DNA of 34,093 nucleotides from IMG/VR virus record IMGVR_UViG_3300034190_001487, positions 1 through 34,093 of that record, one strand, 5' to 3'. The notes beneath the pieces were generated by a model, which saw only the letters and a program-made list of their open reading frames with translations, made no database searches and was not told the DNA's origin. Source of the DNA: a virus. The position numbers and the translations under genes are program-made. Positions 5,214-27,052 of the stretch are shown piece by piece. Every line of letters starts with the position of its first letter. Within the stretch, counting starts at the first letter, position 1.

Positions 5214-6102
5214 AGATATTGATATTATATACTTGTCATATGACGAACCTAATGCAGAAGAAAACTATGCTGATCTTTTAACTAAAGCACCTTGGGCAAA
5301 ACGTGTACATGGCGTAGAAGGATCTGACGCAGCACATAAGGCTTGCGCTGAATTAAGTGAAACGGAACGATTCATTACAGTAGACGGTGACAATAAAATA
5401 TATGCCGATTTCCTAGAACAAGAAATAGACTTTAAACAACATCCTTATATGGAGAACGCTGTGCTTAGTTGGTGCGGCTATAATGTTGTTAATGGATTGT
5501 TATACGGTAATGGCGGCCTTAAATGTTGGCCAAAAGAAGTTGTATTAAACATGAAAACACACGAAGCAAGTGAGTCGGATAATATTGCTGCACAAGTAGA
5601 GTTTTGCTGGAACTTAGATTATATACAAATGAATAGTTGTTATTCTAAAGTATACAATAATGCAACTGCACACCAAGCCTGGAGAGCAGGCTTTCGTGAA
5701 GGTGTTAAAATGTGTTTAGATCAAGGAAAGAAGTTTAATCCTTCTACATTTACGCAGGAAGTGTACTGGCAAAATCTACACAGATTAATGATTTGGCAAA
5801 TGGTAGGTGCTGATGTAGACAATGGGCTATGGGCAATGTACGGAGCTCGCCAAGGCTGTATAATGACAAACTTATCAGATTGGGATTATGTTAATGTTAG
5901 AGACTTTAAATATCTTAACACAATGTGGGATAATATTAACGAAGATAACATTGAAGATGCTATTAATGAACAAGGTATTATACTACAGCGTGAATTAAAC
6001 ATTCCTGTAGATAACTTTTTAAATTCGACACAAAGCGAAATGTTTAAACAAAGCTATAGCAACACTGATCGAACAGGACAAGGATTTATTGACATTGAAT
6101 AA
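5203..6102 (+). CDS. Glycosyltransferase-like protein, third copy of the YDEPNAEEN domain
   Basis: A 299-residue protein with a single copy of the domain found twice in the preceding gene: IDIIYLSYDEPNAEENYADL, then KRVHGVEGSDAAHKACAEL, V-D61-G-D63 as the DxD-like site, GLLYGNGGLKCWPKEVVL, QAWRAGFREGVKM and GLWAMYGARQG. The last 70 residues are a unique, acidic, helical tail. Its ATG lies 11 bases inside the preceding gene, so the two products may assemble as a hetero-oligomer of three domains. The single copy keeps the acidic motif intact, so I would expect it to be catalytic. Confidence 0.55.
   Translation: MKIKDIDIIYLSYDEPNAEENYADLLTKAPWAKRVHGVEGSDAAHKACAELSETERFITVDGDNKIYADFLEQEIDFKQHPYMENAVLSWCGYNVVNGLLYGNGGLKCWPKEVVLNMKTHEASESDNIAAQVEFCWNLDYIQMNSCYSKVYNNATAHQAWRAGFREGVKMCLDQGKKFNPSTFTQEVYWQNLHRLMIWQMVGADVDNGLWAMYGARQGCIMTNLSDWDYVNVRDFKYLNTMWDNINEDNIEDAINEQGIILQRELNIPVDNFLNSTQSEMFKQSYSNTDRTGQGFIDIE
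5239..5264 (+). repeat. 26-bp exact direct repeat, copy 2
   Basis: Identical to 4557-4582, in the same codon phase of a paralogous domain. Confidence 0.85.
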
Positions 6103-7477
6103 GCTAGTTAAAAAACTTGCTCGGCGACTGAAGATTGTAAAAGATCCAATTGATCGAATGGCAGAAGTAAAACAAATTACAGATAAAGTGTCTCCAACAT
6201 TTTGTTTAGCAAAGTGGCACCACACAACTATCTATTTACAAACAGGAGAAACACACAGTTGTTATCACCCTGCTCCGCATAAGATTCCGTTACACGAAAT
6301 AAAAGAAAATCCTAGTGCGTTACATAACACCCAAGAAAAGAAAGAACAGCGTAAGCTAATGTTGCAAGGTGAAAAACCTAGTGGATGTCAGTACTGCTGG
6401 AACATTGAATGTATGGGCAAAGATTATGTCAGTGACAGGCATGAACGAAATTCGGGTATTTACAATAAACATCGACTTGCTGAAATTATTAATAACGACT
6501 GGGACTTTAATATTAATCCTGAATATATCGAAGTGTCGTTTGGTAACGAGTGTAATCTAAAATGCGGATATTGTCATCCTAAGGCTAGCAGTAGTTACTA
6601 TAAAGAAATAGAACAATTTGGCCCATATAATATGGTTAAAAATCATACCCAGCATATAAACAAATTAAACATTTACAAAAAGGAAGAAGAAAACCCTTAT
6701 GTAGCAGCATGGTGGGAATGGTGGCCCGAAGTTAGTAAAACATTAAACATTTTACGCATCACAGGCGGGGAACCATTGTTGCAGCAGAGTATGTGGAGAT
6801 TGCTAGATGAACTAGATAGAGATCCGAAGCCGCATCTTGAAATAAACATAAATTCTAACCTAGCAGTAAAAAATATTTTAGTAGTAAGACTTGCTGAAAG
6901 AGTAAACAAGCTAATAGAAGAAAAGAAAATTAAAAAGTTTAAATTGTTTACTAGTTTAGATACCTGGGGTAAACCTGCAGAGTACATTAGAACTAACTTA
7001 GATCTAAATGTATGGGAAAAGAATTTTGACACTTGGATGACAAAAACTGATCAGCCTATTACATTTATGGTTACATTTAACATACTAAGTGTAACGACAT
7101 TTCAGTCATTACTTGAAAAGTTTTTAGAATGGAGAGCGCATTATCAAAATGATACAACTCGTATCCGCTTTGACACTCCGTATTTAAAAGAACCGATCCA
7201 GTATGATATGAATATTTTGCCTAAGCACTTTATGAGTTATATGGAAAGTCATTTAGCTTTTATCCAAAGTAATCTAGATGAATATGATGTTAATAAGTTT
7301 TCTAAACTTGAATATGAAAAGTTTCGTCGTGTTGTAGACTACATGCGCACTACTGAGTACAGTCAAGACAAATTAGAAATAGGCCGCAAGGATTTTGTTG
7401 CTTGGTTTAAAGAACACGATCGCCGTAGGGGAACAAATTTTGCAGAAACGTTTCCTGAACTAGAAAACATTTTTTGA
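6089..7477 (+). CDS. Radical SAM protein with N-terminal twitch-type Cys module (rSAM 1)
   Basis: A 462-residue radical SAM enzyme. The core motif is C155-N-L-K-C159-G-Y-C162 (CxxxCxxC) in a beta-strand context (IEVSFGNECNLKCGYC), followed by LRITGGEPL for SAM binding. Ahead of the core lies a Cys module, FCLAKW (C39), HSCYHP (C58) and CQYC (C100, C103), which fits the N-terminal twitch class and probably holds an extra Fe-S cluster. The closest relative here is the gene at 16766, which repeats CLAKW, HSC-HP, PSALHN and EKP..C-YCW. No ATG suits the start: TTG 6089 or TTG 6095 follow AAGGA within the previous gene's end, and ATG (residue 24) would still keep all Cys. Substrate unknown. Its 3' end overlaps the convergent gene by 18 bases. 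Confidence 0.85.
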   Translation: MTLNKLVKKLARRLKIVKDPIDRMAEVKQITDKVSPTFCLAKWHHTTIYLQTGETHSCYHPAPHKIPLHEIKENPSALHNTQEKKEQRKLMLQGEKPSGCQYCWNIECMGKDYVSDRHERNSGIYNKHRLAEIINNDWDFNINPEYIEVSFGNECNLKCGYCHPKASSSYYKEIEQFGPYNMVKNHTQHINKLNIYKKEEENPYVAAWWEWWPEVSKTLNILRITGGEPLLQQSMWRLLDELDRDPKPHLEININSNLAVKNILVVRLAERVNKLIEEKKIKKFKLFTSLDTWGKPAEYIRTNLDLNVWEKNFDTWMTKTDQPITFMVTFNILSVTTFQSLLEKFLEWRAHYQNDTTRIRFDTPYLKEPIQYDMNILPKHFMSYMESHLAFIQSNLDEYDVNKFSKLEYEKFRRVVDYMRTTEYSQDKLEIGRKDFVAWFKEHDRRRGTNFAETFPELENIF

Positions 7478-8692
7478 TTGGTATGAGTCGTCTACCGGAC
7501 TTTGTCTAGTAATAAATCTATTACAATTTTCAGTAAATCTTAAAAATTCATTTATAGTATATTCGTTGTACTGCATTCTGTTAGCATTGTAGTCGAGCAC
7601 TTCCTTGTTCTGCATAGACCATTCGATCTGCTGACTGCGAGACATCTTCTCTAAGTGTTTGCATACTCGTATTAATTCTGCTTGCAGTTTGTCCCATCGT
7701 TTTACAATGTCAGTTTCGAAATCAAAGTCATAGTTAAACCAGTCCGTATATAGTTTGTATCCAAGTCTTTGTAGATTGTAATTTTGCCCAGTCTGTCCCC
7801 AAATGATTACGGGTACTTTATGTAATATTGGTTTGAAAGTTTTTTCGCTATAAAACAAACTAGTTTCACACCAGTCGCTCTGCATAGTTTCGTTTGTCAA
7901 ATTGAATAATACTTTGTTCTGCAAGTCGCTGCCTAAATTGTTTGCCCAGTTAGTTTGAAAGTCAGTAGTGTCAACTATCATTGGCGTATTAGTTACTAGC
8001 GTTTTCTGCATTGCGCTACTAAAGTATTTGTTGCCTCTATATTCATTGGGAGATAATTCGTCGTGACTGATTGCTCCATATTTACTCAGTCCTGATTCTT
8101 GAAGTTTGTACACACAATAACTTCTCCAGAATCTATTACGCCTATTTAAATTTAAGAAAAATGTACCGTCATACTTTTTATCAAGTTCTGTATATCTGTT
8201 ATTTCTAACTGACTCGCTACTTCCCCACTGTTTAACATTTGTGTCCCAGTGCATTATTTCAATAACATTAATTGGGTTACTAGTTTGGTTAGTGCCATTA
8301 TAGAAAATTCTAAAGTTGCTTTTTTCTCTTAAATTGCCACTTAGGAATGTTACACCAGCTGGGTCAATATTGTGTTTTATTGCACTATTATATAATGCAA
8401 CCGCAACGTTGTGATGCTCAGGTGCCCATCCTTCGTGAGTTCCGTCTAATACAAAAACACATTCTCTTGCACGAAGTTTATTTAAAAACTCTGGCTTGAT
8501 ATCTTTAAACAAATCACTGTCGCTGTATATTCCGTTTTTGTATGAGTAATGCGCAAATATTACATATTGACTATCGTACTGTTTCCTTTCAGGTCTAGCA
8601 AGATGTTTTTTGTAATGATGGAAGCAACCGATTTCGCTAACACATTCTCGAATATATCTATCATTCGATAGCCATTCTTTAAAATATTTCAT
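7460..8692 (-). CDS. GT10-like (fucosyltransferase-like) protein, putative
   Basis: A 410-residue protein, started at the ATG at 8692 because an AGGAG precedes it; a TTG at 8716 would add eight residues. The useful signature is SEKTFKPI at 282-289 followed by VPVIIWG, resembling the acceptor/donor loop (SEK..KP....P.I..G) near the C-terminus of GT10-type fucosyltransferases and of many phage sugar-transferase-like proteins. The N-terminal half has alternating strands and helices (FVLDGTHEGW at 80-89). It stands between a nucleotide-sugar dehydrogenase (divergent) and the glycosyltransferase block (convergent), which supports a glycan role. Alternative: an uncharacterised T4-like phage protein with a similar loop. 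A T4-late-like box sits upstream. Confidence 0.45.
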   Translation of the reverse strand: MKYFKEWLSNDRYIRECVSEIGCFHHYKKHLARPERKQYDSQYVIFAHYSYKNGIYSDSDLFKDIKPEFLNKLRARECVFVLDGTHEGWAPEHHNVAVALYNSAIKHNIDPAGVTFLSGNLREKSNFRIFYNGTNQTSNPINVIEIMHWDTNVKQWGSSESVRNNRYTELDKKYDGTFFLNLNRRNRFWRSYCVYKLQESGLSKYGAISHDELSPNEYRGNKYFSSAMQKTLVTNTPMIVDTTDFQTNWANNLGSDLQNKVLFNLTNETMQSDWCETSLFYSEKTFKPILHKVPVIIWGQTGQNYNLQRLGYKLYTDWFNYDFDFETDIVKRWDKLQAELIRVCKHLEKMSRSQQIEWSMQNKEVLDYNANRMQYNEYTINEFLRFTENCNRFITRQSPVDDSYQSKNVF

Positions 8693-8727
8693 GAAATTCA
8701 GTACTCCTGTTTGCAATCGCTACTATT

Positions 8728-8735
8728 CATAAATA
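8728..8735 (+). promoter_or_regulatory. T4-late-like promoter box (CATAAATA)
   Basis: CATAAATA differs by one base from the T4 late box TATAAATA. Start predicted near 8741, 29 bases before the dehydrogenase ATG. It overlaps the minus-strand box at 8736-8743 through a palindrome. Depends on the phage having a gp55-type late sigma factor, which this window does not show. Confidence 0.35.
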
Positions 8736-8743
8736 TATTTATA
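8736..8743 (-). promoter_or_regulatory. T4-late-like promoter box (TATAAATA)
   Basis: On the minus strand this is an exact match to the T4 late promoter box. Start predicted near 8730, about 38 bases before the ATG at 8692 of the GT10-like gene. Confidence 0.45.
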
Positions 8744-8769
8744 TGCGCACTTAATATGGAATAGTAGAC

Positions 8770-10014
8770 ATGAATATTGGATTTATAGGCACAGGCAAAT
8801 TAGGTATGCCTTGTGCAGAAGCAATTGCTTCAAAAGGACACAATGTTACAGGGTACGATGTTGCAAAGCATAGTAGCTATCAGGTAAAAATGTTTCCAAC
8901 TATCAAAGGTGCAGTACAAGGCAGAGACATTGTATTTGTTGCAGTACCTACTCCGCACGATCCAAATTATGATGGCAGGGCGCCTACTGCACATTTAGAA
9001 CCAAAAGACTTTAATTACGACATCGTAAAAGAAGTACTAGTAGAAGCAAACAAGCACATGACAAAGGATCAATTGCTTGTACTTATTAGCACAGTATTAC
9101 CAGGCACAACACGCAACCAATTTGTTGATCTTGTTCCTAATACTCGATTTGTTTACAATCCCTATTTAATTGCAATGGGCAGTGTAGCCTGGGATATGGT
9201 TAATCCAGAGATGGTTATGATTGGAACAGAAGATGGAAGTGAAACAGGCGATGCCAAAGAGCTTGTAGACTTCTATAAAACAATCATGGAAAATGATCCT
9301 AGATATGTAATCGGTACGTGGGACGAATGTGAATGTATCAAAGTTTTCTATAACACGTTTATTAGTGCTAAAATTGGTCTAGTAAATATGATACAGGATG
9401 TAGCAGAACGTCAGGGCAATATTAATGTTGATATAGTTACTGATGCATTAGCACAAAGTACTAAACGTATTATGGGACCACAGTATATGACTGCTGGTAT
9501 GGGAGATGGCGGCGCATGCCATCCACGTGATAACATTGCATTGCGATTTCTAGCACAAGAGCTTGGATTAGGATATGACATGTTTGATGCTATTATGAAT
9601 GCTCGAGAAATTCAAGCAGAGAATCTTGCACTTAAACTTGTTGATTTAGCAAATGAATACAATTATCCAATTTACATACACGGCAAAGCATATAAGCCTG
9701 GCGTAGAATATTGCGACGGCAGTTATAGTTTACTCGTAGGCAATTATTGTGACAAGCATGGATTTGCGCCTACGTATATCGATCCGTTAACAGGCGACAA
9801 CAACGAACCACTCGAACCTTGCGTAATACTATTAGCACACTCTGCAAGTACAACCTACAAGTACATGCAAGAAGAGGGCGATGGAACTGATAGATTGTAT
9901 TGTGTAATTCCTGCAAACAGTGTAGTAGTTGATCCTTGGCGCAAGTTTGTTTCTAATGCAAGTAAAGTAATACAGTACGGAAATACTAGACATACAGCAA
10001 AAATGGTGCTATAA
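8770..10014 (+). CDS. UDP-glucose/GDP-mannose dehydrogenase family protein
   Basis: A 414-residue nucleotide-sugar 6-dehydrogenase, normal length for the family. N-terminal Rossmann site GFIGTGKLGMP (4-14) with D30 ending strand 2, as expected for NAD+; VAVPTP is the conserved loop after strand 4; ECIKVFYNTFISAKI holds the family's catalytic Lys and Asn; C250 in MGDGGACHPRD is the catalytic thiol of the usual GGxCxPKD motif (with Arg in place of Lys). The family oxidises the C6 alcohol of a UDP- or GDP-sugar to a uronic acid in two NAD-dependent steps. Donor identity cannot be told. Being followed by radical SAM genes and preceded by sugar transferases, it likely supplies an acidic sugar nucleotide. 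The start is fixed by GGAATAG upstream. Confidence 0.88.
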   Translation: MNIGFIGTGKLGMPCAEAIASKGHNVTGYDVAKHSSYQVKMFPTIKGAVQGRDIVFVAVPTPHDPNYDGRAPTAHLEPKDFNYDIVKEVLVEANKHMTKDQLLVLISTVLPGTTRNQFVDLVPNTRFVYNPYLIAMGSVAWDMVNPEMVMIGTEDGSETGDAKELVDFYKTIMENDPRYVIGTWDECECIKVFYNTFISAKIGLVNMIQDVAERQGNINVDIVTDALAQSTKRIMGPQYMTAGMGDGGACHPRDNIALRFLAQELGLGYDMFDAIMNAREIQAENLALKLVDLANEYNYPIYIHGKAYKPGVEYCDGSYSLLVGNYCDKHGFAPTYIDPLTGDNNEPLEPCVILLAHSASTTYKYMQEEGDGTDRLYCVIPANSVVVDPWRKFVSNASKVIQYGNTRHTAKMVL

Positions 10015-10021
10015 TAGTGCA

Positions 10022-11032
10022 ATGACTGAAGGTACATTTAACAAAATTCCCTTTGACGACATTGTAAAATGTGGACAACGCACGTTACTTAACGGCGACC
10101 TATTTACAGTGAGCTGGATCCTTGGAAGATTTTGCAACTATAATTGCAGCTATTGTTGGCCTTATGCTCGCAGCAGCACTCCTGACTACCTTGAATTAGA
10201 TTGCTATAAACAAACTATTGATTCAATAAAACTTCAAGCACGTTCTAACGGTTTCAAGAACTTCCACTTTAGTTTTAGTGGCGGCGAGCCTACTGCCTAT
10301 AAATACTTTGGGGAGCTCATAGAGCATTATTGCAGTGATGCAACACCTGAATACCAGAGTATACATATGACTACAAATCTAAGTCCCGGAAGCAAGTGGT
10401 GGAATAGATGGTTAGATGCAACTAGTGGGTTAGAACGAAGAAGTATAACAGCAAGCTATCACGCAGAGTTTGCTAATGAACAAGAGTTTGGAGACAAATG
10501 TCTTCAACTAATGAAAGCAGGTGTTTATGTTACAATCAATCAAGTTATGGTTCCAGAAATTTTCGAAGAGCTTTACGGACGCTTGGAGCGATTTGCCTCC
10601 AGAGGTATTAATGTCACTCTCAAGCCCCAGTCCGATCCAACCGCCAGTCGTGTGGTACATGGGTACACACCTGAACAAGTACACACAATGCAAACAGGAT
10701 TCGTCCAACGAATCCCAGACAAGTATAAAAAGCTAGTACCGTTATATCAAGTTGAACTTGAAGACAGTAAAGGCCAAACGTATAATATAGATCAAGCAGA
10801 GCGTTTTAACGCATTTGGATTTAATAAGTTTAAAGGTTGGACTTGCAATGCAGGCTATCAAGGATGCGTTATACGTGAGAACGAAGTTAAGCGCAGCTAC
10901 AGTTGCCATGATGAACCCTTAGGCACGTTAGACGGCGGATTTGAGCTGTTTAAAGCACCAGCTAAGTGCATTACTCCTACCTGTGTAAGTAGTGCCGATA
11001 GTAAACTACCAAAGGTGAAATATGAAAGTTGA
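10022..11032 (+). CDS. Radical SAM protein with C-terminal twitch-type Cys cluster (rSAM 2)
   Basis: A 336-residue radical SAM enzyme. Core CxxxCxxC is C38-N-Y-N-C42-S-Y-C45 and FSGGEPT (86-91) is the SAM-binding GGE motif. The last 80 residues carry a second Cys set, WTCNAGYQGC, SYSC and KCITPTC, consistent with a twitch or partial-SPASM auxiliary Fe-S cluster. Enzymes with such tails usually act on peptides or, less often, small molecules. Ends in an 11-nt overlap with the methyltransferase-like gene, so the two are coupled. Substrate unknown. Confidence 0.87.
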   Translation: MTEGTFNKIPFDDIVKCGQRTLLNGDLFTVSWILGRFCNYNCSYCWPYARSSTPDYLELDCYKQTIDSIKLQARSNGFKNFHFSFSGGEPTAYKYFGELIEHYCSDATPEYQSIHMTTNLSPGSKWWNRWLDATSGLERRSITASYHAEFANEQEFGDKCLQLMKAGVYVTINQVMVPEIFEELYGRLERFASRGINVTLKPQSDPTASRVVHGYTPEQVHTMQTGFVQRIPDKYKKLVPLYQVELEDSKGQTYNIDQAERFNAFGFNKFKGWTCNAGYQGCVIRENEVKRSYSCHDEPLGTLDGGFELFKAPAKCITPTCVSSADSKLPKVKYES

Positions 11033-11627
11033 TATACAAGACGTACTATTTTGGATGGATGCAATTCGCAACAGCGATGACAAATACCGCACACTTGAAA
11101 GTTTTTGGAAAGGACAAGTCAACAGCAAAGTATGGCTTGCTGATGCATTGCGTGTAAACTACATTGACGACGATGCTCGTATTGTAATATACGGTGGATG
11201 GAACGGTGTGCTTTCTAGTATTTTATTTAACAGCAGTTTGAGTATTGAACATATTACAAGTGTTGACATTGACGAAAATTGTCAAGAAATTGCTTACACA
11301 GTTAATAAAAACTACGAAATTGCAGGACGCTTTGATGCAGTAACAGCTGACATGTGTACATACACAGAACCTGCCGACATTGTTATCAACACAAGTTGCG
11401 AACACATTACACAAGAGCAATACGAGCAATGGTTAAGTATTCAGCCAGACGATGCGCTATTTGTAATACAAAGCAATAACTATTTTGAGTTAGAAGAACA
11501 CATTCGTTGTGCAACTGACATTGATGACTTTATGCGTATGAGTAGTATTAACCCTTACTGGAGCGGCGAATTTAAAACCCCTAAGTATACTCGTTATATG
11601 ATTATAGGTGAAAAGAAAAATGTTTAA
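11022..11627 (+). CDS. SAM-dependent methyltransferase-like protein
   Basis: A 201-residue Rossmann-like protein. YGGWNG (57-62) stands where class I methyltransferases have the glycine-rich SAM loop, ITSVDID (78-84) matches the acidic end of strand 2, FDAVTADM (104-111) the region after strand 3, and DIVINTSCEHI (119-129) the post-strand-4 motif; NTSCEH is typical of a group of small methyltransferase-like proteins in phages and marine bacteria. SAM use is expected from the fold; the methyl acceptor is unknown. It is coupled to radical SAM genes on both sides (11-nt and 8-nt overlaps), so it may methylate an intermediate of their pathway. Confidence 0.65.
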   Translation: MKVDIQDVLFWMDAIRNSDDKYRTLESFWKGQVNSKVWLADALRVNYIDDDARIVIYGGWNGVLSSILFNSSLSIEHITSVDIDENCQEIAYTVNKNYEIAGRFDAVTADMCTYTEPADIVINTSCEHITQEQYEQWLSIQPDDALFVIQSNNYFELEEHIRCATDIDDFMRMSSINPYWSGEFKTPKYTRYMIIGEKKNV

Positions 11628-12687
11628 ATTTGACAAATTAAAACAATTACACTTAGAAATTACAAATAGGTGTCAAGCAAGCTGTGCAATGTGTAGCAGG
11701 AACTTTCACGGCGGCATGATTAATCCTCTAATTAGTAATCAAGACTGGACAACTGACGATTTTAAAAAAATACTTACACCTGAAGTGTTACAGCACCTTG
11801 AAGGTTTCTACTTTTGTGGTAATTTTGGCGATCCTATTATTAATAATGACCTAATAGATATGTGCCAATACAGTAAAGACACAAATCCTAACTTGTACAT
11901 TAGAATACACACTAATGGTGGCGCCCGATCTACGGATTGGTGGAAAAAACTTGCAAAAGCAATGCCTCCTGCGCATAATGTTATTTTTGCGATTGACGGT
12001 TTAGCAGATACACATAGCTTATATAGGTCTGGCACTGACTTTAATAAAGTACTAGACAACGCTAAAGCATTTATTAATGCTGGCGGAACAGCAGAATGGG
12101 CGTTTATTAAGTTTAAACACAATGAACATCAACAAGAAGCAGCAGAAGCATTGGCGAAAACGCACGGCTTTGCTAGATTTACATATAAAGACAGTGCAAG
12201 ATTTGTTGCTACTGAAAAGTTTCCAGTCTATGATCAAGATGGCAATACAGTACGTTATTTAGAACCTCCCACTGGTAGTAAAATTACACTCGTTACACAA
12301 GATATAATTGACAACTATAAAGATATTGTAGATGCAAGTGAAATTGACTGCTATATTACGCATACTAAAGAACTTTATATAGATGCATACAAGAATGTAA
12401 TGCCTTGTTGCTTTTTGGCAAGTATTCCTTACAATTATTCAGCACCGACAGACGTTGCACGAGAGATCAAACATGAAATTGAAACCCAGTATAAAGCTCT
12501 TATCACTGACCTAGGCGATACAAATGCGCTTAAATCATCTATAAAGGAAATTGTTAGCACCGATGCTTGGCAAACAGTGTGGAACAAATATTGGAATACG
12601 CAGAAACTAATTACTTGCGCTAGAACTTGCGGAGTAAACAAACTTAGCAAGCCTAAGGATCAGTTTATAGAGAAAACTGAACTATGA
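11620..12687 (+). CDS. Radical SAM protein with SPASM-like tail (rSAM 3)
   Basis: A 355-residue radical SAM enzyme, started at the ATG at 11620, which forms an 8-nt ATGTTTAA overlap with the preceding gene; a GTG at 11608 would add four residues. Core motif C18-Q-A-S-C22-A-M-C25 within LHLEITNRCQASCAMC. In place of GGEP it has CGNFGDPIIN, a variant seen in SPASM-type enzymes. The C-terminus carries ECYI-like, MPCCFLA and CARTCG cysteines that should bind auxiliary Fe-S clusters. This is the only one of the ten with this tail. It is followed by an ATGA overlap with the PP-loop ATPase gene. Peptide or protein substrates are typical of the SPASM class; none is identified here. Confidence 0.85.
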   Translation: MFKFDKLKQLHLEITNRCQASCAMCSRNFHGGMINPLISNQDWTTDDFKKILTPEVLQHLEGFYFCGNFGDPIINNDLIDMCQYSKDTNPNLYIRIHTNGGARSTDWWKKLAKAMPPAHNVIFAIDGLADTHSLYRSGTDFNKVLDNAKAFINAGGTAEWAFIKFKHNEHQQEAAEALAKTHGFARFTYKDSARFVATEKFPVYDQDGNTVRYLEPPTGSKITLVTQDIIDNYKDIVDASEIDCYITHTKELYIDAYKNVMPCCFLASIPYNYSAPTDVAREIKHEIETQYKALITDLGDTNALKSSIKEIVSTDAWQTVWNKYWNTQKLITCARTCGVNKLSKPKDQFIEKTEL

Positions 12688-13382: not shown

Positions 13383-14763
13383 TTTAAAAAAGTATCAAGC
13401 TCAAATAGAACAAGTAGCCGGTACACCTACATTCTGCGTATTACCGTGGATACACTTTGCCACTCGTCCTAATGGCGACATGCGACTATGTTGTAGTGCT
13501 AATGCAAGCGGCGCAGGAGGGGACCATACTGTTGGCCTTGTCAAAATGGAAAACGGTAAAGCAGCTAACTTCGGTCGTGAAACTCCTATGGAAGCATGGA
13601 ATAACGATTATATGAAAAGTGTACGTACAACTATGCTTAACGGCGAGATACCTGCAAGTTGCACAAAATGTTTTCAAGAAGAAAAACAGGGTATTGTAAG
13701 TAAGCGAGTCTGGGAAACAGGAACGTGGCATCAAGATGATAATGGTGTAGATATTCCTGAACTCATTCGCCAAACAAAAGAAGATGGCACAGTACCAGAA
13801 GATTTAAAATATTTAGATTTGCGGCTAGGACACACTTGTAATATTAAATGCGTAATGTGTAGCCCACATGATTCAAGTAAATGGGTTGCTGATCATAAGA
13901 AACTAATTCCTGTACTACAAGACCCTGAAGTCAAAAGACAAATGCAATGGGACCGAAAAGAATTCAATAATAAATGGCACGAAAAGGATTCATTTTGGGA
14001 AGAGTTGTATGCTCAGATTCCTAATCTAAGACAAGTGTACTTTGCTGGAGGCGAGCCTCTAATGATTAAAGAACATAAAATGTTTATTGAGGAAATACTG
14101 CGTCAAGGGTATCAAGATAAAATATTACTGCGTTACAACTCAAATGGTTTGCTTGTAGACGACGATCTTGTTGAGATGTGGAGCAAGTTTAAAAAAGTTA
14201 AGTTTGCAGTAAGTATGGATGCTAGTCACGAACGTGATGAGTATATACGTTATCCTACAGACTGGGCAACGGTAGAAAAAACTTTACATATGCTAGACAA
14301 CACTCCGGACAATATACAAACTAGTTTAGCAACAGCAATACAAATATTCAACGTAAAACATTTGCCTGACTTTATGAAGTGGAAATTAGAAAGCGGATTT
14401 AAAAAGCTAAACAGCGGAACTGTTCCGGGCGGCGTACAGATGGGCGGTGGTTTAGTTAATATGCATCTATTATACATTCCTACATTTTTAAGCATACAGA
14501 TTCTGCCTAAAGAAGACAAACAAGAAGTTCGTGAACGTTTTATGGACTTTAAAGATTGGCTGTGGAACAACTACAGACAAGATGATGATTTTTGGAAACA
14601 TAATCCGTATGGATGGAAACGCTGGGAAGCAGTTCTTAAACACATGGATGCACAAGACAACAGTCACTTACTTCCGGGCTTCAAAGAGTATACTAACAAA
14701 CTAGATAAAATTCGTAACTTAAATGCAGCAACAGTATTTCCGGAGTTAGCGCACTTGTTATGA
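13375..14763 (+). CDS. Radical SAM protein with N-terminal twitch-type module (rSAM 4, type B)
   Basis: A 462-residue radical SAM enzyme. The N-terminal module has FCVLPW (C21), LCCSA (C39, C40) and SCTKC (C96, C99), with the EAWNNDYMKSVR helix between them, a hallmark of this N-twitch group. The core CxxxCxxC is C155-N-I-K-C159-V-M-C162, then YFAGGEPLM. The closest relative here is the minus-strand gene at 19924-21192: both have EAWNND, CNLK/CNIK, and F-AGGEPLM. The C-terminal 100 residues are helical with no Cys cluster. It starts a four-gene run of radical SAM genes on the plus strand. Substrate unknown. Confidence 0.87.
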   Translation: MSDLKKYQAQIEQVAGTPTFCVLPWIHFATRPNGDMRLCCSANASGAGGDHTVGLVKMENGKAANFGRETPMEAWNNDYMKSVRTTMLNGEIPASCTKCFQEEKQGIVSKRVWETGTWHQDDNGVDIPELIRQTKEDGTVPEDLKYLDLRLGHTCNIKCVMCSPHDSSKWVADHKKLIPVLQDPEVKRQMQWDRKEFNNKWHEKDSFWEELYAQIPNLRQVYFAGGEPLMIKEHKMFIEEILRQGYQDKILLRYNSNGLLVDDDLVEMWSKFKKVKFAVSMDASHERDEYIRYPTDWATVEKTLHMLDNTPDNIQTSLATAIQIFNVKHLPDFMKWKLESGFKKLNSGTVPGGVQMGGGLVNMHLLYIPTFLSIQILPKEDKQEVRERFMDFKDWLWNNYRQDDDFWKHNPYGWKRWEAVLKHMDAQDNSHLLPGFKEYTNKLDKIRNLNAATVFPELAHLL

Positions 14764-15737
14764 TAAAGGAGATTAAAAATAATCAACCAACTGATACATT
14801 ACGTATAGAGTATATGCCGGGTAATTTTTGCAATCATAAATGCCATTATTGCTTTCCTGGCAGTAATGAAGGTGATTATCCTTGGCCTGATGTCATACAA
14901 GTAATAGATAATTTTGAACACTTGCTAACGCATTACAAACTTCACGGAAAAACTAAAAGTGACATATTCATTGTAGGAGGAGAGCCTACAGTATGGAAAG
15001 AGTTGCCGATATTATGTAAGTTTTTAAAAGATAACTTTGGCTCGACTATTGAAATTAGTTCTAACGGCAGTCGAAGTTTAGAATGGTGGAAAGAAAACGC
15101 TAGGTATTTTGATCATGTAGGTATTAGTGTACATAGAGAATTTGCAAAGTTAGATCATATCATAGAAGTCTGCAATATACTTTATGAAAATAATGTTTTA
15201 GTATCTGCAGATGTGTTAATAGATCCTGATGCATACGAACAATGTGTAGACATTGTAGAATATTTAAAAAAGTTTGCTGCACACAAATGGCCAATTATTG
15301 CAAAAGTAGTTCACTTTAACGGATTGCATAGATATACTGATCAACAGTTAGAATACTTTGATGAAAGCATCAAACAATACCCGCCCTTAGACTGGTACCA
15401 TTCAGTATCTCATAAAGAACGTCGAGAAGTTACTATAACTTACGATAATAACGAAGTTGTGACTACTAATAGTGATAGTTGGTTAACACGAAATAACTTA
15501 AATTACTTTAAAGATTGGGAATGTAACATAGGTGTAGATTTTATTAAAATATTTCCTAATGGCAACATAACAGGAAACTGTCAGCAAACATTATACAACG
15601 ATAGTACTATACATAATTTTAATCACGTAGACTTTAGAAAAACATTCATGCCAACTATAGGTCCAGTAATCTGCACAAAGCAAGTATGCGGGTGTAATGA
15701 AGAAACTGTATGTAATAAAAGGAAACAATATGTTTGA
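14760..15737 (+). CDS. Radical SAM protein with C-terminal twitch-type module (rSAM 5, type D)
   Basis: A 325-residue radical SAM enzyme. Core C24-N-H-K-C28-H-Y-C31, SAM motif IVGGEPT, and ISSNGSRS after strand 4. The tail has ECNIG, GNCQQ and ICTKQVCGC, spaced like a twitch auxiliary cluster; a similar WRCAAG ... ATC ... CTRKWCTC pattern ends the minus-strand gene at 19020. Starts in an ATGA overlap with the preceding radical SAM gene and ends in an 8-nt overlap with the next, so three radical SAM proteins are translated as a unit. Substrate unknown. Confidence 0.86.
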   Translation: MIKEIKNNQPTDTLRIEYMPGNFCNHKCHYCFPGSNEGDYPWPDVIQVIDNFEHLLTHYKLHGKTKSDIFIVGGEPTVWKELPILCKFLKDNFGSTIEISSNGSRSLEWWKENARYFDHVGISVHREFAKLDHIIEVCNILYENNVLVSADVLIDPDAYEQCVDIVEYLKKFAAHKWPIIAKVVHFNGLHRYTDQQLEYFDESIKQYPPLDWYHSVSHKERREVTITYDNNEVVTTNSDSWLTRNNLNYFKDWECNIGVDFIKIFPNGNITGNCQQTLYNDSTIHNFNHVDFRKTFMPTIGPVICTKQVCGCNEETVCNKRKQYV

Positions 15738-16773
15738 TACCCTCGAACCAATCAATCCGCAAGTATTTCAAATTGCATGGGAGAGTACACTCAAATGTAA
15801 TCTTGATTGTAGCTACTGCGGCGACGGGCATGATAACAAACAACCGCATCCTCCGTTAGCAGAAAGTTTAGACACTGTAGACTTTATCGTAAATTATGTT
15901 TCGCAGATTATGAAAACACGAAAAAATAAAGAAGCAAGTCTCAACATACAAGGCGGCGAAAGTTTAGTACATCCTAAAATAGTTGAAATACTACGATATG
16001 CCAACCGCGCTGCTACTACTGTTGATTGGAAGTTATATATTAATACGATTACTAATGCAGTTGTAAAAGATAAAGTATGGCACCGTCTTGTTCCGTTTAT
16101 TAATTTCTTTACAATTAGTTTTCATTCAGAATCTTCGTACACTCAACAAGATCAAGTGCGTAAAAATATTTTGTATATAAAAGAATTAGGTAAACAGTTT
16201 CACGTATCAATACTAATGCATCCCAAGTACTGGGACACTTGCGAAAGCATGGTTAACTGGTGTAAGGAAAACGATGTAAAATATAATATACGACAAATTG
16301 ATCATCATTGGACTGACTTTAGATTTAATTATTCAAAAGAACAAATAGAATATATTACTGGTTCTGCCCCTGCGTCTGTTTTACAAATAGCAAAAGCAGT
16401 TGTTACAGGCGGGTTTGATTTATCAGCAAGCAGCAGAGAATGTTGTGGCGGCCTAGAAATGTGTACAAATCAAACAGCATGCACCAAGCGAGTTGAAAAT
16501 AAATTTAAAGGCTGGCATTGTAGTGTTGATAAACAGTTTTTGTATATTAGGCAAACTACTGGAGAAGTTTTTACTAACAAAGATTGTCGCATGAATTGGG
16601 ACGGCAAAGTAGGTCCTATTGGAAATTTAAAAGACACTGCGGCAATACTAAAACGAGTAGCCGATGGAACAAATACAATCATTTGTAAAAAGTCAAGTTG
16701 TTGGTGCGGCATATGTGCGCCCAAGGCAAAGCATAAAGAAGACTATGATAGGATTATGTTGAAGTATGTTTAA
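15730..16773 (+). CDS. Radical SAM protein with CCGG-type C-terminal Cys module (rSAM 6, type C)
   Basis: A 347-residue radical SAM enzyme; ATG 15730 is chosen because AAGGA lies 7 bases ahead and it forms the ATGTTTGA overlap. Core C23-N-L-D-C27-S-Y-C30. The SAM motif reads IQGGESL, with Ser in place of the usual Pro. The C-terminal third has RECCGGLEMC, FKGWHCSVDKQFLYI, FTNKDC and SCWCGIC, a Cys-rich layout expected to hold one or two extra Fe-S clusters. The same layout (CCGGRC, FKGWFCSVNKYFLHI, HHQTC, CGCGMC) is in the minus-strand gene at 17972, so these two are clear paralogues. Substrate unknown. Confidence 0.87.
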   Translation: MFDTLEPINPQVFQIAWESTLKCNLDCSYCGDGHDNKQPHPPLAESLDTVDFIVNYVSQIMKTRKNKEASLNIQGGESLVHPKIVEILRYANRAATTVDWKLYINTITNAVVKDKVWHRLVPFINFFTISFHSESSYTQQDQVRKNILYIKELGKQFHVSILMHPKYWDTCESMVNWCKENDVKYNIRQIDHHWTDFRFNYSKEQIEYITGSAPASVLQIAKAVVTGGFDLSASSRECCGGLEMCTNQTACTKRVENKFKGWHCSVDKQFLYIRQTTGEVFTNKDCRMNWDGKVGPIGNLKDTAAILKRVADGTNTIICKKSSCWCGICAPKAKHKEDYDRIMLKYV

Positions 16774-18010
16774 TTGGTATGTAAAAAATAAACTAGGCGA
16801 AAGTCTATGTTTAGCAAAGTGGACCAACAGCACAATGCATTTAGGCATAGGAAAGAATCACAGTTGTCATCATCCTAATCCGCATACTGTTCCTGTTGAA
16901 GAAGTTAAAGCAGATCCTAGTGCATTACATAATAGTTCATACAAACGTAGTGTTAGAGATCAAATGCTTAATAACGAAAAGCCATCAGAGTGCGATTACT
17001 GTTGGAGCATAGAAGAAACAGAAAAGTATAGTGACAGAGTACTAATGAGTAAAAAGCTCGACAGTCTTCCGTACTACAATGATATTATTTCTAGTAACAG
17101 ATATGATCCTACTATGTTAGAAGTTAGTTTTTCAAATGTTTGCAACTTTAAATGTGCATACTGCGGCCCGCAGTTTAGCAGTTTATGGGCAAGTGAAATA
17201 GAAAACAACGGTGCATATCCTACATCACAGAACTATAACGACATATACGAAAAACAAATACTAGATAGAGAAGCTAATCCATATATTGATGCATTTTGGA
17301 AATACCTGCCGATAATGTATTATGGATTGCACACCTTACGTATTACAGGTGGCGAACCTATGCTCAGTCGGCATACAAAAAAGTTGCTCAATTACATTAT
17401 AGAAAATCCTAATAAAAAACTTACCCTAGTAATCAATAGTAATCTAGGTGCACCAAAGCATGTTATTGCAGATTTTATTTCACAGTTAGAAAAAGTTCAA
17501 CATTGTGTAAAGCGTATTGAAATAGCAACTAGTGGAGAAAGCTATGGAGCAAAAGCTGAGTATGTTCGTGATGGTTTAAACTACGCACAGTGGATTGAAA
17601 ACTGTAATTATGTATTAACTGAACTTCCTAAATTAAAGTTAAGTTTAATGTGTGCGTACAATGTATTGAGTATTACTAGCTTTGATAGTTTTATTGATGA
17701 TATTGTTAATCTTAAGAAAAAATACAAGCGTGTAAAACTGAGTATAAGTTATGTTAGGCATCCTAGCTTTATGCATGTATCTCTAGCACCTAAATCTTGG
17801 CATTATATACTATTACAATCTCGTACAAAACTTAAAAAACATTTTAATAACGAAACAGTTCAACGTTTTGATTTTGTAATTTCTGAGTTTAATAAAGATC
17901 CTAATGAAACACAATTAGATGACTTCAAATCATTTATTAAAGAATACGACATACGCCGTAGTAAGAAATTTTTAGATGTTTTTAGCGAGTATAGCTGTAT
18001 AGTCGGATAG
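16766..18010 (+). CDS. Radical SAM protein with N-terminal twitch-type module (rSAM 7, type A)
   Basis: A 414-residue radical SAM enzyme and close paralogue of the gene at 6089. N-terminal Cys at CLAKW (C15), NHSCHHP (C34) and CDYCW (C76, C79), core C126-N-F-K-C130-A-Y-C133, and LRITGGEPML. Both paralogues share EANPYI/EENPYV, YNVLSIT/FNILSVT and a C-terminal KEYDIRRSK/KEHDRRRGT ending in F.E. It sits in the middle of the seven-gene radical SAM run, between the plus-strand B-D-C order and the minus-strand repeat of that order. Its 3' end overlaps the convergent gene by 39 bases. Substrate unknown. Confidence 0.87.
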   Translation: MFNWYVKNKLGESLCLAKWTNSTMHLGIGKNHSCHHPNPHTVPVEEVKADPSALHNSSYKRSVRDQMLNNEKPSECDYCWSIEETEKYSDRVLMSKKLDSLPYYNDIISSNRYDPTMLEVSFSNVCNFKCAYCGPQFSSLWASEIENNGAYPTSQNYNDIYEKQILDREANPYIDAFWKYLPIMYYGLHTLRITGGEPMLSRHTKKLLNYIIENPNKKLTLVINSNLGAPKHVIADFISQLEKVQHCVKRIEIATSGESYGAKAEYVRDGLNYAQWIENCNYVLTELPKLKLSLMCAYNVLSITSFDSFIDDIVNLKKKYKRVKLSISYVRHPSFMHVSLAPKSWHYILLQSRTKLKKHFNNETVQRFDFVISEFNKDPNETQLDDFKSFIKEYDIRRSKKFLDVFSEYSCIVG

Positions 18011-19033
18011 TTCTCGTGCCTTGGGCACACACATTCCGCAACCACAACGTTCATTAGGACAAATAATAGTCCTGTCTTTGTTGAATCTAGCATAAGCAAG
18101 TATAGCATCTATGTCTTTAAGGGTGCCTACAGGGCCTCTATCGCCGTCGTGTAGTGCTTTACACGTCTGATGGTGATACACATTGCCCGTGTGTTGATCG
18201 ATGTGTAAGAAGTACTTGTTGACGCTGCAAAACCATCCTTTAAAATGTGTATCGACTAGTTCAACTTCTTGCCACTTGCCGTTTACTTTGCCCTGCAAAC
18301 AACGTCCACCACAACATTTACGTCCTAATTCTGTTCCTGCCTTTGTTCCTTCACTAGGCTTTGCAACATTAGTGTAACTATAAAACCAATCTTGTTGTTC
18401 GTCGGTATAGTCGTGTGTTGTCCTACGCTGACTTCCATCTGTGTCAGTGAACCAACCCTTGCGTTCTACATTGCCATCACCGATAGGTCGAGGATTGTGT
18501 TTAATGCCTAATGCTTTTAGTTCTTCGCATACTGCAACACCTTCAGACCAGTTGTCTGTGTGTAGCATTACATTTACTTGCAGCCACAACCCTTTGGCAT
18601 GCAACAGTTTGATGTTGTCTAGTGTTTGTTGTTTTAGTTTAGCATGACCTTCTGTATGATAACTTACAGTAACACCTTCGAATAGCTCTGCTATGCGATC
18701 AGTGTTGCGAGGATGCCAAGCACCGTTTGTAGTTAAGCTAAGTCTAAAACGTGTTTCGGTATTTTTAATGTGTTCTGCTAGTTGCCAAAACGCAGGATTA
18801 ACTGTGGGCTCTCCGCCTGTAAAGTTTATGTTAACTAGATCAGTGTATATGCTAGTATATTCTTTTACAAACTCAAATGTACGCAACATTTCTTCGTAAC
18901 TATGTGGAGAGCTTTTATTATCATGACGACTTATTTCACAATAGCTACAATCAAAGTTACATCTGCGTCCAGTGTCCCAAGTAACCATTAAGCGTTCTGG
19001 GCCTGTTAAATTTAAAGCACTAGTTGTTATCAT
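17972..19033 (-). CDS. Radical SAM protein with CCGG-type C-terminal Cys module (rSAM 8, type C)
   Basis: A 353-residue radical SAM enzyme. Core C25-N-F-D-C29-S-Y-C32, then INFTGGEPT. The tail has KCCGGRCLQG, FKGWFCSVNKYFLHI, YHHQTC, GPVGTLKDIDAIL and RCGCGMCVPKA, the same order as the plus-strand gene at 15730 (which has GPIGNLKDTAAIL). Compared with that paralogue it keeps the standard GGEP. It is third in a minus-strand operon and its ATG lies 14 bases inside the preceding gene. Substrate unknown. Confidence 0.88.
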   Translation of the reverse strand: MITTSALNLTGPERLMVTWDTGRRCNFDCSYCEISRHDNKSSPHSYEEMLRTFEFVKEYTSIYTDLVNINFTGGEPTVNPAFWQLAEHIKNTETRFRLSLTTNGAWHPRNTDRIAELFEGVTVSYHTEGHAKLKQQTLDNIKLLHAKGLWLQVNVMLHTDNWSEGVAVCEELKALGIKHNPRPIGDGNVERKGWFTDTDGSQRRTTHDYTDEQQDWFYSYTNVAKPSEGTKAGTELGRKCCGGRCLQGKVNGKWQEVELVDTHFKGWFCSVNKYFLHIDQHTGNVYHHQTCKALHDGDRGPVGTLKDIDAILAYARFNKDRTIICPNERCGCGMCVPKARELSDYTAILAKNI

Positions 19034-19931
19034 TTACTAGTCCTTTTGTTAGCGGTATATCAGCAGCACAAGTACACCATTTGCGTGTACAAGTAATCCA
19101 TTCTTCTGGTGCTTCAAAACTTCCGTCATAAATGTTACCTAAACTGCCACCTACTCTGCAAGTAGCACGATGTACATCGCCGTCCCAGTTAATCATTAAA
19201 CTTTGAATACCAGCAGCACAGCGCCATCCTTCAAACTGATTACGTTGCTCTTTAATAATATCGTTAGCGTGTGCAAGCTCTTCATTGTCTATTACACAGT
19301 TTGGTTTTGCAGTTGACTTCTGATCAAGTATCCATTGTAGATCCTTTTCATTATATTTCATATCGTCAAACCAATCATGTTTTTCAGTCCAACGTATCCG
19401 TCTTACTACATAAGGAACATGATGTCCGTCAAACAACGTTGCACAAGTTTTTACTCTATCCATATGTTCGTGATGTGCCATTAGATTAACTTGAAATGGT
19501 ATACCTCTTTCCATGTCATTTAGTTGCGTCCAGTATAGCACATTGTTTAGACATCGTTCCCAGTTGTCATCATCTTCTACATGCAAGCTAAACACATAAT
19601 GGTTTACAGGCAGTCTAGCATACAGTTTATGCGGTAGTGTTCCGTTGGTTGTAATATTAACCCAATCAAGCCTTTGTACAGCATGCTCTACAATTTCCAT
19701 TATATGAGGATGTACACATGGCTCGCCGCCTGTGAAGCTAAGTCGTACCGGACGATCTAATTCGTATAATGCATCGATTGTATCTAGCATTACTTTTATA
19801 TTAGTGTGTTTACTAAAGTTATCGTGTATTTCGCTTGGACAGTATGTACAGTCTAGATTACATCGTTTACCGATATTCCATTCAACGTGTATACTATCTT
19901 TATGATCCCATCGACTTTCTACTTTATACAT
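19020..19931 (-). CDS. Radical SAM protein with C-terminal twitch-type module (rSAM 9, type D)
   Basis: A 303-residue radical SAM enzyme. The start at 19931 gives an 8-nt ATGTATAA overlap with the preceding gene; a further upstream ATG at 19982 would put 17 extra residues inside that gene. Core C24-N-L-D-C28-T-Y-C31, LSFTGGEPC, ITTNGT. Tail cysteines: WRCAAG, RATC, TCTRKWCTC. The layout matches the plus-strand gene at 14760, in the same operon position. Substrate unknown. Confidence 0.86.
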   Translation of the reverse strand: MYKVESRWDHKDSIHVEWNIGKRCNLDCTYCPSEIHDNFSKHTNIKVMLDTIDALYELDRPVRLSFTGGEPCVHPHIMEIVEHAVQRLDWVNITTNGTLPHKLYARLPVNHYVFSLHVEDDDNWERCLNNVLYWTQLNDMERGIPFQVNLMAHHEHMDRVKTCATLFDGHHVPYVVRRIRWTEKHDWFDDMKYNEKDLQWILDQKSTAKPNCVIDNEELAHANDIIKEQRNQFEGWRCAAGIQSLMINWDGDVHRATCRVGGSLGNIYDGSFEAPEEWITCTRKWCTCAADIPLTKGLVNDNN

Positions 19932-21192
19932 ATGATATGAATTCCGGATTAGTTGCAAGAAAGTCTTGGTCGCGAGTTTCATCTAATCTACGATTAAATT
20001 CTATACAGTCTTGCCAGTGTGTGTTGTACATACACTTTGATTCTAAGAAATTAATGTTATCTTGTATCTGCTGTAGTGTTACAGTTTCCAATAGTTTGTG
20101 CTGTTTTACTAGAGGATAATCTAATACTTCTTCTTTCATTTTTTCTAATCTTGCAACTACTTTTGTTTTTAGTTCTGGCGGCAATACTTGCGCACTTAAA
20201 CTCATAGGGTAGTTTACTCTGTGTGAATAAAATATAATACCTAGTTTGTTAATAAAGTAATCAATAACTTTGTCAATTTGCATTATGTTATTTGCTTGTA
20301 CAGTAAATGCACCAACTACTCTAGTTACATTAGGAAAACTCTTAAACACTTTGATGTTTTCTTCAATCTCACTAAATTTACCATTGCCTCTAATGTATTC
20401 ATAAACATCGTGTATGCCGTCTATGCTTACATTCACAGCAATTGATTTAAACTTGGGCCAGTAGTCGTGTATAGTACGACCGCCTTTAATGCCTAGCGTA
20501 GTTCCATTTGTTGCATATTTTAATTCTATTTGATTGCCATATTGTGCTAGCTTGTCTAGTATCTTGTAATGATACGGATCCATCAGCGGCTCGCCACCTG
20601 CAAACTCTACTCGTCTAAAGAACGGTAGCAGTTTTTCAAATGATTCCCACCAATTGTCGCTGTTATCAAATGGGCCAATATATTGCCCAGGCTTATCTAC
20701 AAGGCCTTCAATAGTTGGAATAAGATAGTTATCTTCTTTTTTGTAAAACTCTGTAACAACGTCCCAATCCTTCCAGCTAGTACTATCCAGTGGGTTGCAC
20801 ATACGACATTTTAGATTGCACAAGTTGTTTAGTTTAATCTCCATAGTTGGAAACTCAAATGGCATTGTATAATCGTCGTTTAAAGCGTCTAGTGCATCAG
20901 GGTACAAGTTGACCCTAGCTTCGGGTATTACTCCTGCTGTATGACGCTGTCGTAAGCTCTGTACACCCTGGTCTTCTAAGTCAAAGCAAGGTTTGCACAC
21001 ATCAGGTCGTTCGTTATTAAGTACTTGTCTACGTACTTCACGCATTGTATCGTTGTTCCACGCTTCTTCCAAACTTTCGTTTTGAATAAAGCCAACTGGC
21101 TGACTACGACAACATACCTTAATAGCGCCATCTTCACGAGTTGCCATTCCTGTAAATGGATGCATACAAAATGTACAAGAGTTTGTTTTCAT
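19924..21192 (-). CDS. Radical SAM protein with N-terminal twitch-type module (rSAM 10, type B)
   Basis: A 422-residue radical SAM enzyme, first gene of the minus-strand triplet. N-terminal module: SCTFC (C6, C9), VCCRS (C27, C28), VCKPC (C66, C69), with EAWNNDTMREVRRQVLNNER between, nearly the same frame as in the gene at 13375. Core C125-N-L-K-C129-R-M-C132, then EFAGGEPLMDP and KYATNGT. The C-terminal 90 residues are helical and lack a Cys cluster. No promoter was recognised in the 54-base gap to the divergent gene at 21247. Substrate unknown. Confidence 0.88.
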   Translation of the reverse strand: MKTNSCTFCMHPFTGMATREDGAIKVCCRSQPVGFIQNESLEEAWNNDTMREVRRQVLNNERPDVCKPCFDLEDQGVQSLRQRHTAGVIPEARVNLYPDALDALNDDYTMPFEFPTMEIKLNNLCNLKCRMCNPLDSTSWKDWDVVTEFYKKEDNYLIPTIEGLVDKPGQYIGPFDNSDNWWESFEKLLPFFRRVEFAGGEPLMDPYHYKILDKLAQYGNQIELKYATNGTTLGIKGGRTIHDYWPKFKSIAVNVSIDGIHDVYEYIRGNGKFSEIEENIKVFKSFPNVTRVVGAFTVQANNIMQIDKVIDYFINKLGIIFYSHRVNYPMSLSAQVLPPELKTKVVARLEKMKEEVLDYPLVKQHKLLETVTLQQIQDNINFLESKCMYNTHWQDCIEFNRRLDETRDQDFLATNPEFISYV

Positions 21193-21246
21193 ATCAATAT
21201 TTACCGTAATTAAACTAGCAGTTTATCAGAAGCGATAAGTATTTGT

Positions 21247-23001: not shown

Positions 23002-23002
23002 G

Positions 23003-24287: not shown

Positions 24288-24314
24288 ACACATACTTATC
24301 AGGTAAGTAAATGC

Positions 24315-25019: not shown

Positions 25020-25054
25020 AAGAACCATAAAAACTATAACCATGCATTAACCAC

Positions 25055-25090: not shown

Positions 25091-25107
25091 CTTTAAAAAA
25101 CGTTCTA

Positions 25108-25332: not shown

Positions 25333-25342
25333 ATTATCTTCC

Positions 25343-26086: not shown

Positions 26087-26113
26087 GAATAAATCCTATG
26101 TCTTATTATAGTG

Positions 26114-27048: not shown

Positions 27049-27052
27049 ATTA

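Follow-up and report, generated by a model that had tools for sequence, protein, structure and literature searches.

A conserved island of radical SAM genes in phage genomes and its putative role in surface tailoring

Ten genes for radical S-adenosylmethionine (radical SAM) enzymes lie at 6089–21192 of the IMG/VR virus record IMGVR_UViG_3300034190_001487, the whole of which (34,093 bases) was analysed and is called the window here. A core of five to six of these genes was kept with the same partners in related phage loci. This pattern of co-occurrence is as expected for a multistep pathway and supports the multistep radical pathway proposed in a first-pass annotation, the product of which is unproven. 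In the papers examined, phages rich in radical SAM genes have been noted as gene counts or cassettes only. Across 67 non-redundant phage loci, five to six radical enzymes were seen to form a fixed set with a QueC-like and a methyltransferase-fold partner. This suggests a real biosynthetic route, maintained by viruses, whose product is unnamed in those papers. No description of such a fixed viral set was found in the literature searched. The island most likely makes a modified group for the virion or the host surface as its putative product.

Ten radical SAM proteins in the window

Genes were called using open reading frame (ORF) calling and Pfam. The ten radical SAM ORFs (320–462 aa; seven on the plus strand and three on the minus strand) all carried CxxxCxxC and matched PF04055 (E = 7.8e-5 to 1.8e-14), and eight of the proteins passed the curated Pfam cut-off in hmmscan. 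R06089 and R16766, which scored below this cut-off (23.3 and 26.9 vs. 29.5 bits), were clear members of NF033640 (N_Twi_rSAM; 324 and 293 bits, cut-off 170), as were R13375 (400 bits) and R19924 (328 bits), although the description of this family gives no reaction. The other six proteins reached no NCBIfam cut-off among the best 25 families per protein. Moreover, in a direct search of the genome with the profile, the places free of internal stops numbered exactly ten; nine of them were over the cut-off, one of these only when same-frame neighbours were included. The profile search for radical SAM, SPASM and twitch domains proposed at first pass therefore placed all ten proteins in the superfamily, confirming the count of ten genes.

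The CxxxCxxC motifs start at nt 6551, 10133, 11671, 13837, 14829, 15796, and 17141 on the plus strand and span 18938–18961, 19839–19862, and 20797–20820 on the minus strand; the positions first reported for them proved to be gene starts (low ends for the minus-strand genes). As had been claimed, nine of the proteins keep the GGE motif. The exception, R11608, has GNFGDP instead, and its GN-x-GDP was invariant among 16 aligned relatives.

The auxiliary Cys residues fell into four layouts, one more than previously described. An N-terminal Cys set is present in the N-terminal-twitch proteins R06089 (6089..7477, plus strand; PF04055 E = 7.8e-5; Cys 39/58/100/103 and 155/159/162 conserved), R13375 (13375..14763, plus; SPASM domain PF13186 at residues 21–99), R16766 (16766..18010, plus), and R19924 (19924..21192, minus; SPASM E = 1.4e-7), of which R13375 and R19924 belong to the core. 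Four to five C-terminal Cys characterize the core proteins R10022 (10022..11032, plus; four Cys; PF04055 E = 2.4e-11) and R19020 (19020..19982, minus; five Cys; E = 9.4e-13) together with R14760 (14760..15737, plus; five Cys; E = 2.1e-13). The third layout, with eight to nine conserved C-terminal Cys, was found in R15697 (15697..16773, plus, start possibly at 15730; nine Cys; E = 1.2e-7) and R17972 (17972..19033, minus; eight Cys; E = 1.8e-14). The core protein R11608 (11608..12687, plus, start possibly at 11620 or 11626; E = 6.6e-7) has C-terminal Cys in a layout of its own, C248/CC267-268/C337/C341. For each protein, up to 120 of the 10–170 homologues found were aligned, and the three core Cys and at least four auxiliary Cys were 95–100% conserved. 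Because these residues are near-invariant, none of the ten looks decayed, and all ten look functional by sequence, in agreement with the first-pass view that all carry extra Cys sets. The extra Cys may serve as ligands of predicted iron–sulfur (Fe-S) clusters.

One explanation, counter-defence or antiviral-type nucleotide chemistry of the viperin type, finds some resemblance in these proteins, since the five short ones matched viperin models weakly (best NCBIfam score of the ten, 50.2 bits with NF038283; best PADLOC score among eight radical SAM proteins, 51.9 bits with pVip). However, all NCBIfam scores were far under the cut-off of 180 and the matches were confined to the radical SAM core, which makes this explanation very unlikely. 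PADLOC, run on ten window proteins that included eight radical SAM proteins (R06089 and R16766 left out), gave weak viperin- and QueC-type matches only. Viperins, moreover, are not known to have conserved Cys sets at the C-terminus, which also counts against this explanation.

Core gene set among related phage loci

Related loci were collected in five scans with four seed proteins (R13375; Q12684 twice, once as an alignment; R17972; and an alignment of g11022), with the best 80 matches of a scan kept and the matches of the g11022 alignment being a lower bound. Loci sharing at least 30% of sampled 30-mers were merged, which reduced 365 loci to 196 including the window. The set of 67 non-redundant loci comprises those in which the QueC-like gene is flanked by 6 kb or more on either side, and a second set of 33 comprises those in which the methyltransferase-fold gene g11022 is flanked by 7 kb or more on either side.

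Among the 67 loci, the radical SAM genes recurred as follows: R19924 and R19020 in 67 each, R13375 in 66, R11608 in 65, R10022 in 53, and R14760 in 49. The partners g21247, g22456, g11022, and g23478 recurred in 65, 61, 60, and 53 loci, respectively. As R13375 and g11022 were used as seeds, their counts are partly biased; R19924, R19020, R11608, R10022, R14760, g21247, g22456, and g23478 were never queries. The commonest same-strand neighbours were R13375–R14760 (92), R19924–R19020 (84), Q12684–R19924 (72), R10022–g11022 (71), and g11022–R11608 (70), and g3876 preceded R10022 in 54 gene pairs. Two conserved runs were recognized, namely R10022, the methyltransferase-fold gene, R11608, N-twitch R13375, and R14760, and the QueC-like gene followed by N-twitch R19924, R19020, and R17972.

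An accumulation of unrelated radical SAM genes in a hypervariable hotspot, with no single pathway, would account for the patchy occurrence of R06089, R15697, R16766, and R17972 (13, 5, 6, and 14 of the 33 loci, respectively) and for the gene order and strand, which vary between loci. Nevertheless, co-occurrence of the core was near-obligate in proteins that diverge to about 36–50% identity among relatives, and gene pairs were conserved. We therefore consider the hotspot improbable.

The partner g11022 (11022..11627, plus) belongs to the core as a predicted class-I methyltransferase fold. Its AlphaFold2 model (predicted local distance difference test score, pLDDT, 86) resembled ChlM (4qdj; TM 0.64–0.66) in Foldseek, whereas a profile search against PDB sequences gave nothing. 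The QueC-like PP-loop protein Q12684 (12684..13382, plus; phrog_1550, E = 1.1e-7) was also modelled at pLDDT 86 and has the PP-loop motif SGGADSA and four conserved C-terminal Cys as invariant residues. A C-terminal Cys set is a criterion for QueC. In Foldseek, the model matched QueC modestly (TMt 0.58–0.64 at a root mean square deviation, rmsd, of 5.5–7.1) and Cap9 of the cyclic-oligonucleotide-based antiphage signalling system (CBASS) with TMt 0.69, the nearest PDB folds (NcsA, QueC, and Cap9) lying at rmsd 5.5–8.7. Q12684 is thus predicted to resemble QueC (PF06508) and Cap9 in its PP-loop fold (TMt 0.58–0.69) and four C-terminal Cys, but it scores under the Pfam cut-off and its relatives were found almost exclusively in viral sequences. 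Relatives were present in 478 of 522 pattern-matching viral stretches (not deduplicated), in contrast to a single match among 539 pattern matches in GTDB, on a phage-like contig in a Muricauda metagenome-assembled genome (MAG). This contig (NHBR02000105.1, L261; Muricauda sp. TMED12 MAG) carries a divergent core module in which methyltransferase-like, N-twitch, R11608-like, and QueC-like genes are consecutive. In the phylum of this MAG, NF033640 was over its cut-off in two of 296 genomes, in one of them on a phage-like contig.

With its QueC-like fold and its set of Cys residues, Q12684 would also suit a nucleobase pathway acting on DNA, tRNA, or a free nucleotide by QueC/QueE-like logic. Phage DNA containing 7-deazaguanine is known, and a separate ORF that looks QueE-like by eye is present in a related contig (G001, L393:2645–3652). 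However, no radical SAM protein reached the cut-off of the listed QueE model (TIGR03963; best listed score 32.2 vs. 260.1 bits), no QueD, FolE, or TGT family was found among the window proteins scanned (several small ORFs lay outside the scan), and the aspartyl-hydroxylase-type gene g21247 does not fit such a route. Since the QueE-like ORF is far from the island, a deazaguanine pathway may exist separately, and we regard a nucleobase role of the island itself as quite doubtful.

The number of radical SAM genes in the island had been called unusual, and this did not hold for the lineage. PF04055 matches were present in all 24 long related viral records; a 117-kb record had 22 of them, a 221-kb record 17, and G001 15, and the lowest number was 1. 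Furthermore, 31 of the 33 loci contained 5–13 ORFs with a radical SAM protein as best hit, the other two containing one and three. A survey for the island, which had been suggested for marine T4-like phage genomes, was made among these relatives; it yielded a conserved gene set and indicated that density is a lineage trait rather than an oddity. The T4-like virus TARA_ERS488813_N000010 is described as carrying 12 radical SAM genes (Nishimura 2017, PMC5332604), so density alone is not new; in the passage describing it these genes are counted as Fe-S genes and no conserved set with QueC-like and methyltransferase genes is named, and the likeness is one of description only.

Genome setting and proposed pathway

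The window is likely to be part of a T4-superfamily jumbo-phage-related genome. A sister contig, G001 (IMG/VR 3300025849_000010; 159,618 bases), is colinear with the window in reverse, with identities of 93.6% (window 1–993), 97.7% (996–20998), 95.7% (21002–30785), and 96.7% (32349–33640); the one inner stretch without a match in G001 is 30785–32349. In this stretch of about 1.5 kb, an AAA_33-domain gene is accompanied by several small ORFs. The window itself has no capsid gene, and G001 has a T4-type Gp23 capsid gene, which upholds the viral, and more exactly phage, origin first assigned to the window. The G001 capsid protein shares 70–72% identity with its counterparts in Phosso, Vibrio phage 2.275.O, and PA5oct, the nearest among the matches listed; the Rak2-like jumbo phage lineage is a possible placement. 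The earlier label "marine T4-like" therefore fits loosely only: the capsid is of T4 type, and the nearest listed capsids are those of jumbo phages. In addition, the VWA protein at window 27689 had its best INPHARED matches in PA5oct and relatives (43.6%). The largest record with relatives of the island has 265,680 bases, which makes a jumbo size likely. No DNA nearly identical to the window was found in INPHARED, where tblastn with two of the ten radical SAM proteins gave four records at 24–28% identity.

A chimeric assembly could be suspected because the window is a 34-kb record and possibly a fragment. However, the separate 159-kb contig is colinear with it and other contigs (e.g., L082 and L101) have the same gene order, so that we assign chimerism a negligible probability.

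Enzyme families, their conservation, their linkage, and the position of the island in four of seven long contigs were observed directly. On one flank of the island, G001, G007, G018, and G020 have a run of long structural ORFs with two glycosyltransferase-like genes, and on the other a VWA/MoxR pair. In the window, the two glycosyltransferase-like genes (1740–2600, by eye, and 2593–3369, mannosyltransferase-like, PF11051 E = 9.8e-5; both plus) lie between fibre-like genes and the island, and they are equally placed in G007, G018, and G020. The 3' end of a structural-looking ORF (1..1338, plus; so called from position and length, no family match) is continued in G001 by a series of very long ORFs, at the far end of which stands a baseplate wedge homologue that is 36–39% identical to those of the jumbo phages listed. 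A nucleotide-sugar dehydrogenase gene (UDP-glucose/GDP-mannose dehydrogenase family; 8770..10014, plus; PF03721 E = 1.1e-17, PF00984 E = 8.8e-17, phrog_9148 E = 1.6e-95) adjoins the island, as do the glycosyltransferase-like genes. A published parallel is the host-recognition region of pelagimyophages, which is variable and carries tail fibre and glycosyltransferase genes; some of these phages also have radical SAM cassettes there, by which two of them are reported to differ (PMC7029224). These phages belong to a different group, and the region is likened by its description there and not by core genes.

Owing to this position, the sugar-type genes, and the precedent of the host-recognition region, we favour, with somewhat less than even confidence, a tailoring pathway of several enzymes that is encoded by jumbo phages of the T4 superfamily and makes a surface group on the phage fibre or host envelope. 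The intact catalytic and auxiliary Cys of the ten radical SAM proteins, the recurrence of the core, and its conserved gene order support this reading. For the order of steps, the substrate, the place of attachment, and the purpose, we infer the following scheme. The QueC-like PP-loop enzyme would adenylate a carboxylate or amide, the radical SAM enzymes would then perform successive radical steps in which the extra Fe-S sites handle substrate or electrons, and the methyltransferase and oxygenases would complete the group. The glycosyltransferases could then attach it to a phage fibre or host envelope glycan, and the phage might thereby change its adsorption, exclude rivals, or mask its virion.

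Several results weigh against the tailoring pathway. A fibre-like neighbour was not seen in the other three of the seven long contigs (G010, G022, and G024), and fibre-like homologues were detected in only three of 89 island loci of at least 18 kb, whose 10-kb flanks rarely reach that far, so the link to fibres rests on the long contigs. "Fibre-like" is itself a label given by size and position, and one such ORF that was checked matched 40 INPHARED records, mostly hypothetical, with "tail fiber protein" as the name of one of the 12 listed. No glycosyltransferase is among the tightest core genes, and no core radical SAM protein was over the NCBIfam cut-off of any family of known reaction. As for Q12684, its closest PDB fold by E-value was the thiolase NcsA, and it scored under the PF06508 gathering threshold (17.8 vs. 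22 bits).

Second radical SAM array and neighbouring genes

Outside the region shared with the window, G001 contains another radical SAM array. Of the 19 CxxxCxxC ORFs of at least 180 aa in G001, ten belong to the island and the other nine lie at 112630–122655. The second array directly follows two paralogous small ORFs of 124 and 127 aa that end in RICH(A/S)SCHYSCHGSRGRR, with an invariant C-terminal CHxSCHxSCHxSRGRR as the tail of both (small proteins, L398:10101–10858; array, L398:12630 to L399:2655; together G001:110101–122655). Five related ORFs of the array (L398:12630–18193) have GPTD in place of the usual GGE, as judged by eye.

A scan with the 127-aa protein found 16 loci, of which 15 had both paralogues and all 16 had radical SAM-motif ORFs. 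A DNA pattern for (CHxS)3-R-x-RR matched at least 120 viral stretches, and 80 of these were fetched (not deduplicated, some contigs being common to the 16-locus scan). The tail was confirmed in 79 of the 80, and 99 of 100 tails had no residue after them; L443 held a chance repeat. A CxxxCxxC frame of at least 150 residues was present in 71 of the 80 stretches, compared with none for the reversed motif, and a homologue (E ≤ 1e-8) of a second-array radical SAM protein of G001 was present in 74. With the tail removed, 98 proteins formed two groups, with 52 and 41 members, and left five singletons, indicating that one tail sits on differing proteins. NCBIfam gave no meaningful match to the small tail proteins, the pattern was absent from 395 genomes of the Muricauda phylum, and no paper containing any of three tail strings was found among the open-access papers searched.

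Among cultivated jumbo phages, clusters of radical SAM genes (PF04055) were seen in Sinorhizobium phage Phosso, whose host is S. meliloti (4 PF04055 matches), Atu_ph07 (4), FLC6 (4), and Vibrio K566 (6). Unlike in the island, the radical SAM genes of Phosso, Atu_ph07, and FLC6 surround a (CHxS)3-tail protein and thus represent a separate second system. The pattern was confirmed among radical SAM genes related to those of G001 in Phosso XYS97446.1 (L258:10910–11830; tail CHTSCHASCHSSRSRR), Atu_ph07 gp170 (L542:9001–9891), and FLC6 gp72 (L541:7001–7561); FLC8 and SURPRISE13 are carriers by protein match only. In FLC6, four proteins matched the G001 array at 33–59% identity, three of them radical SAM proteins (33, 48, and 59%). 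FLC6 is placed in the RSL2/RSF1 clade (PMC8066314), which is described as related to phiKZ-type phages, another lineage (PMC5468394). In Atu_ph07, gp170 is at the edge of one of three gene clusters reported to be rich in virion proteins found by mass spectrometry (coding sequences 170–215; PMC6102473).

The array in G001 shows that this phage group does link radical SAM genes to candidate protein substrates, and it lends some weight to the idea that the island performs a modification like that of ribosomally synthesized and post-translationally modified peptides (RiPPs) on a ribosomal protein, probably a virion protein, encoded elsewhere in the genome. SPASM/twitch-type radical SAM enzymes with an Asp-hydroxylase and a methyltransferase fold also resemble peptide-tailoring sets. 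On the other hand, no precursor gene was found beside the radical SAM genes of the island, and there is no intergenic room for one at 10022–21192, where each gene overlaps its neighbour. The (CHxS)3 tail was not found in the island loci scanned, the (CHxS)3 loci had no island homologue with a score above 80 bits, and all ten proteins stayed below the cut-offs of the RiPP maturases among the listed families. In our view, a RiPP-like role for the island is less likely than surface tailoring but ranks next to it.

Of the 24 long island records (many of them fragments; for G012, 77 kb was used, for the tail scan only), G001 alone also had a (CHxS)3 tail, suggesting that the two radical SAM systems are separate. 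We tentatively suggest, as a possibility more doubtful than likely, that two distinct radical SAM systems remodel the phages' own adhesion apparatus, the island through cofactor- or glycan-like chemistry for fibres or the host surface and the tandem radical SAM enzymes of the second, widely shared system by modifying the invariant CHxSCHxSCHxSRGRR tails of small proteins beside structural genes. If true, virion proteins would here be targets of radical enzymes, a class of chemistry for which our literature searches gave no description in phages. With the cultivated (CHxS)3 phages, ordinary mass spectrometry could test for radical SAM chemistry on phage proteins.

The remaining genes around the island were assigned as follows. 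Upstream, the related proteins g3876 and g5203 (3876..6102, plus) form one family in clustering and are glycosyltransferase-A-like by eye only, and g7460 (7460..8716, minus) is hypothetical, matching no family of Pfam or PHROG at E 0.001. Downstream, g21247 (21247..21912, plus) is a predicted aspartyl/asparaginyl beta-hydroxylase-type oxygenase (profile against the beta-hydroxylase PDB 7v4f, E = 2.2e-18), and g22456 (22456..23001, plus), which has no Pfam family, is oxygenase-like by motif, by eye only. A short protein (23003..23509, plus) resembles short-chain dehydrogenases/reductases of the RmlD type (PF04321 E = 6e-4, under the Pfam cut-off). The minus-strand g23478 (23478..24320) has an HxD...H motif that marks it, by motif only, as a putative 2-oxoglutarate oxygenase; H189/R190/D191/H246/R259 were invariant in 14 sequences, and its profile gave no meaningful match in the PDB.

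Finally, kinase-like small proteins recur in the island loci. In the window these are g24315 (24315..25019, plus), with a protein-kinase-like fold (profile against TTK kinase, E = 1.2e-6), and the small g21909 (21909..22463, plus), kinase-like by eye only, which follows g21247 in other loci too. Their catalytic motifs appear degenerate by eye, so both may be pseudokinases.

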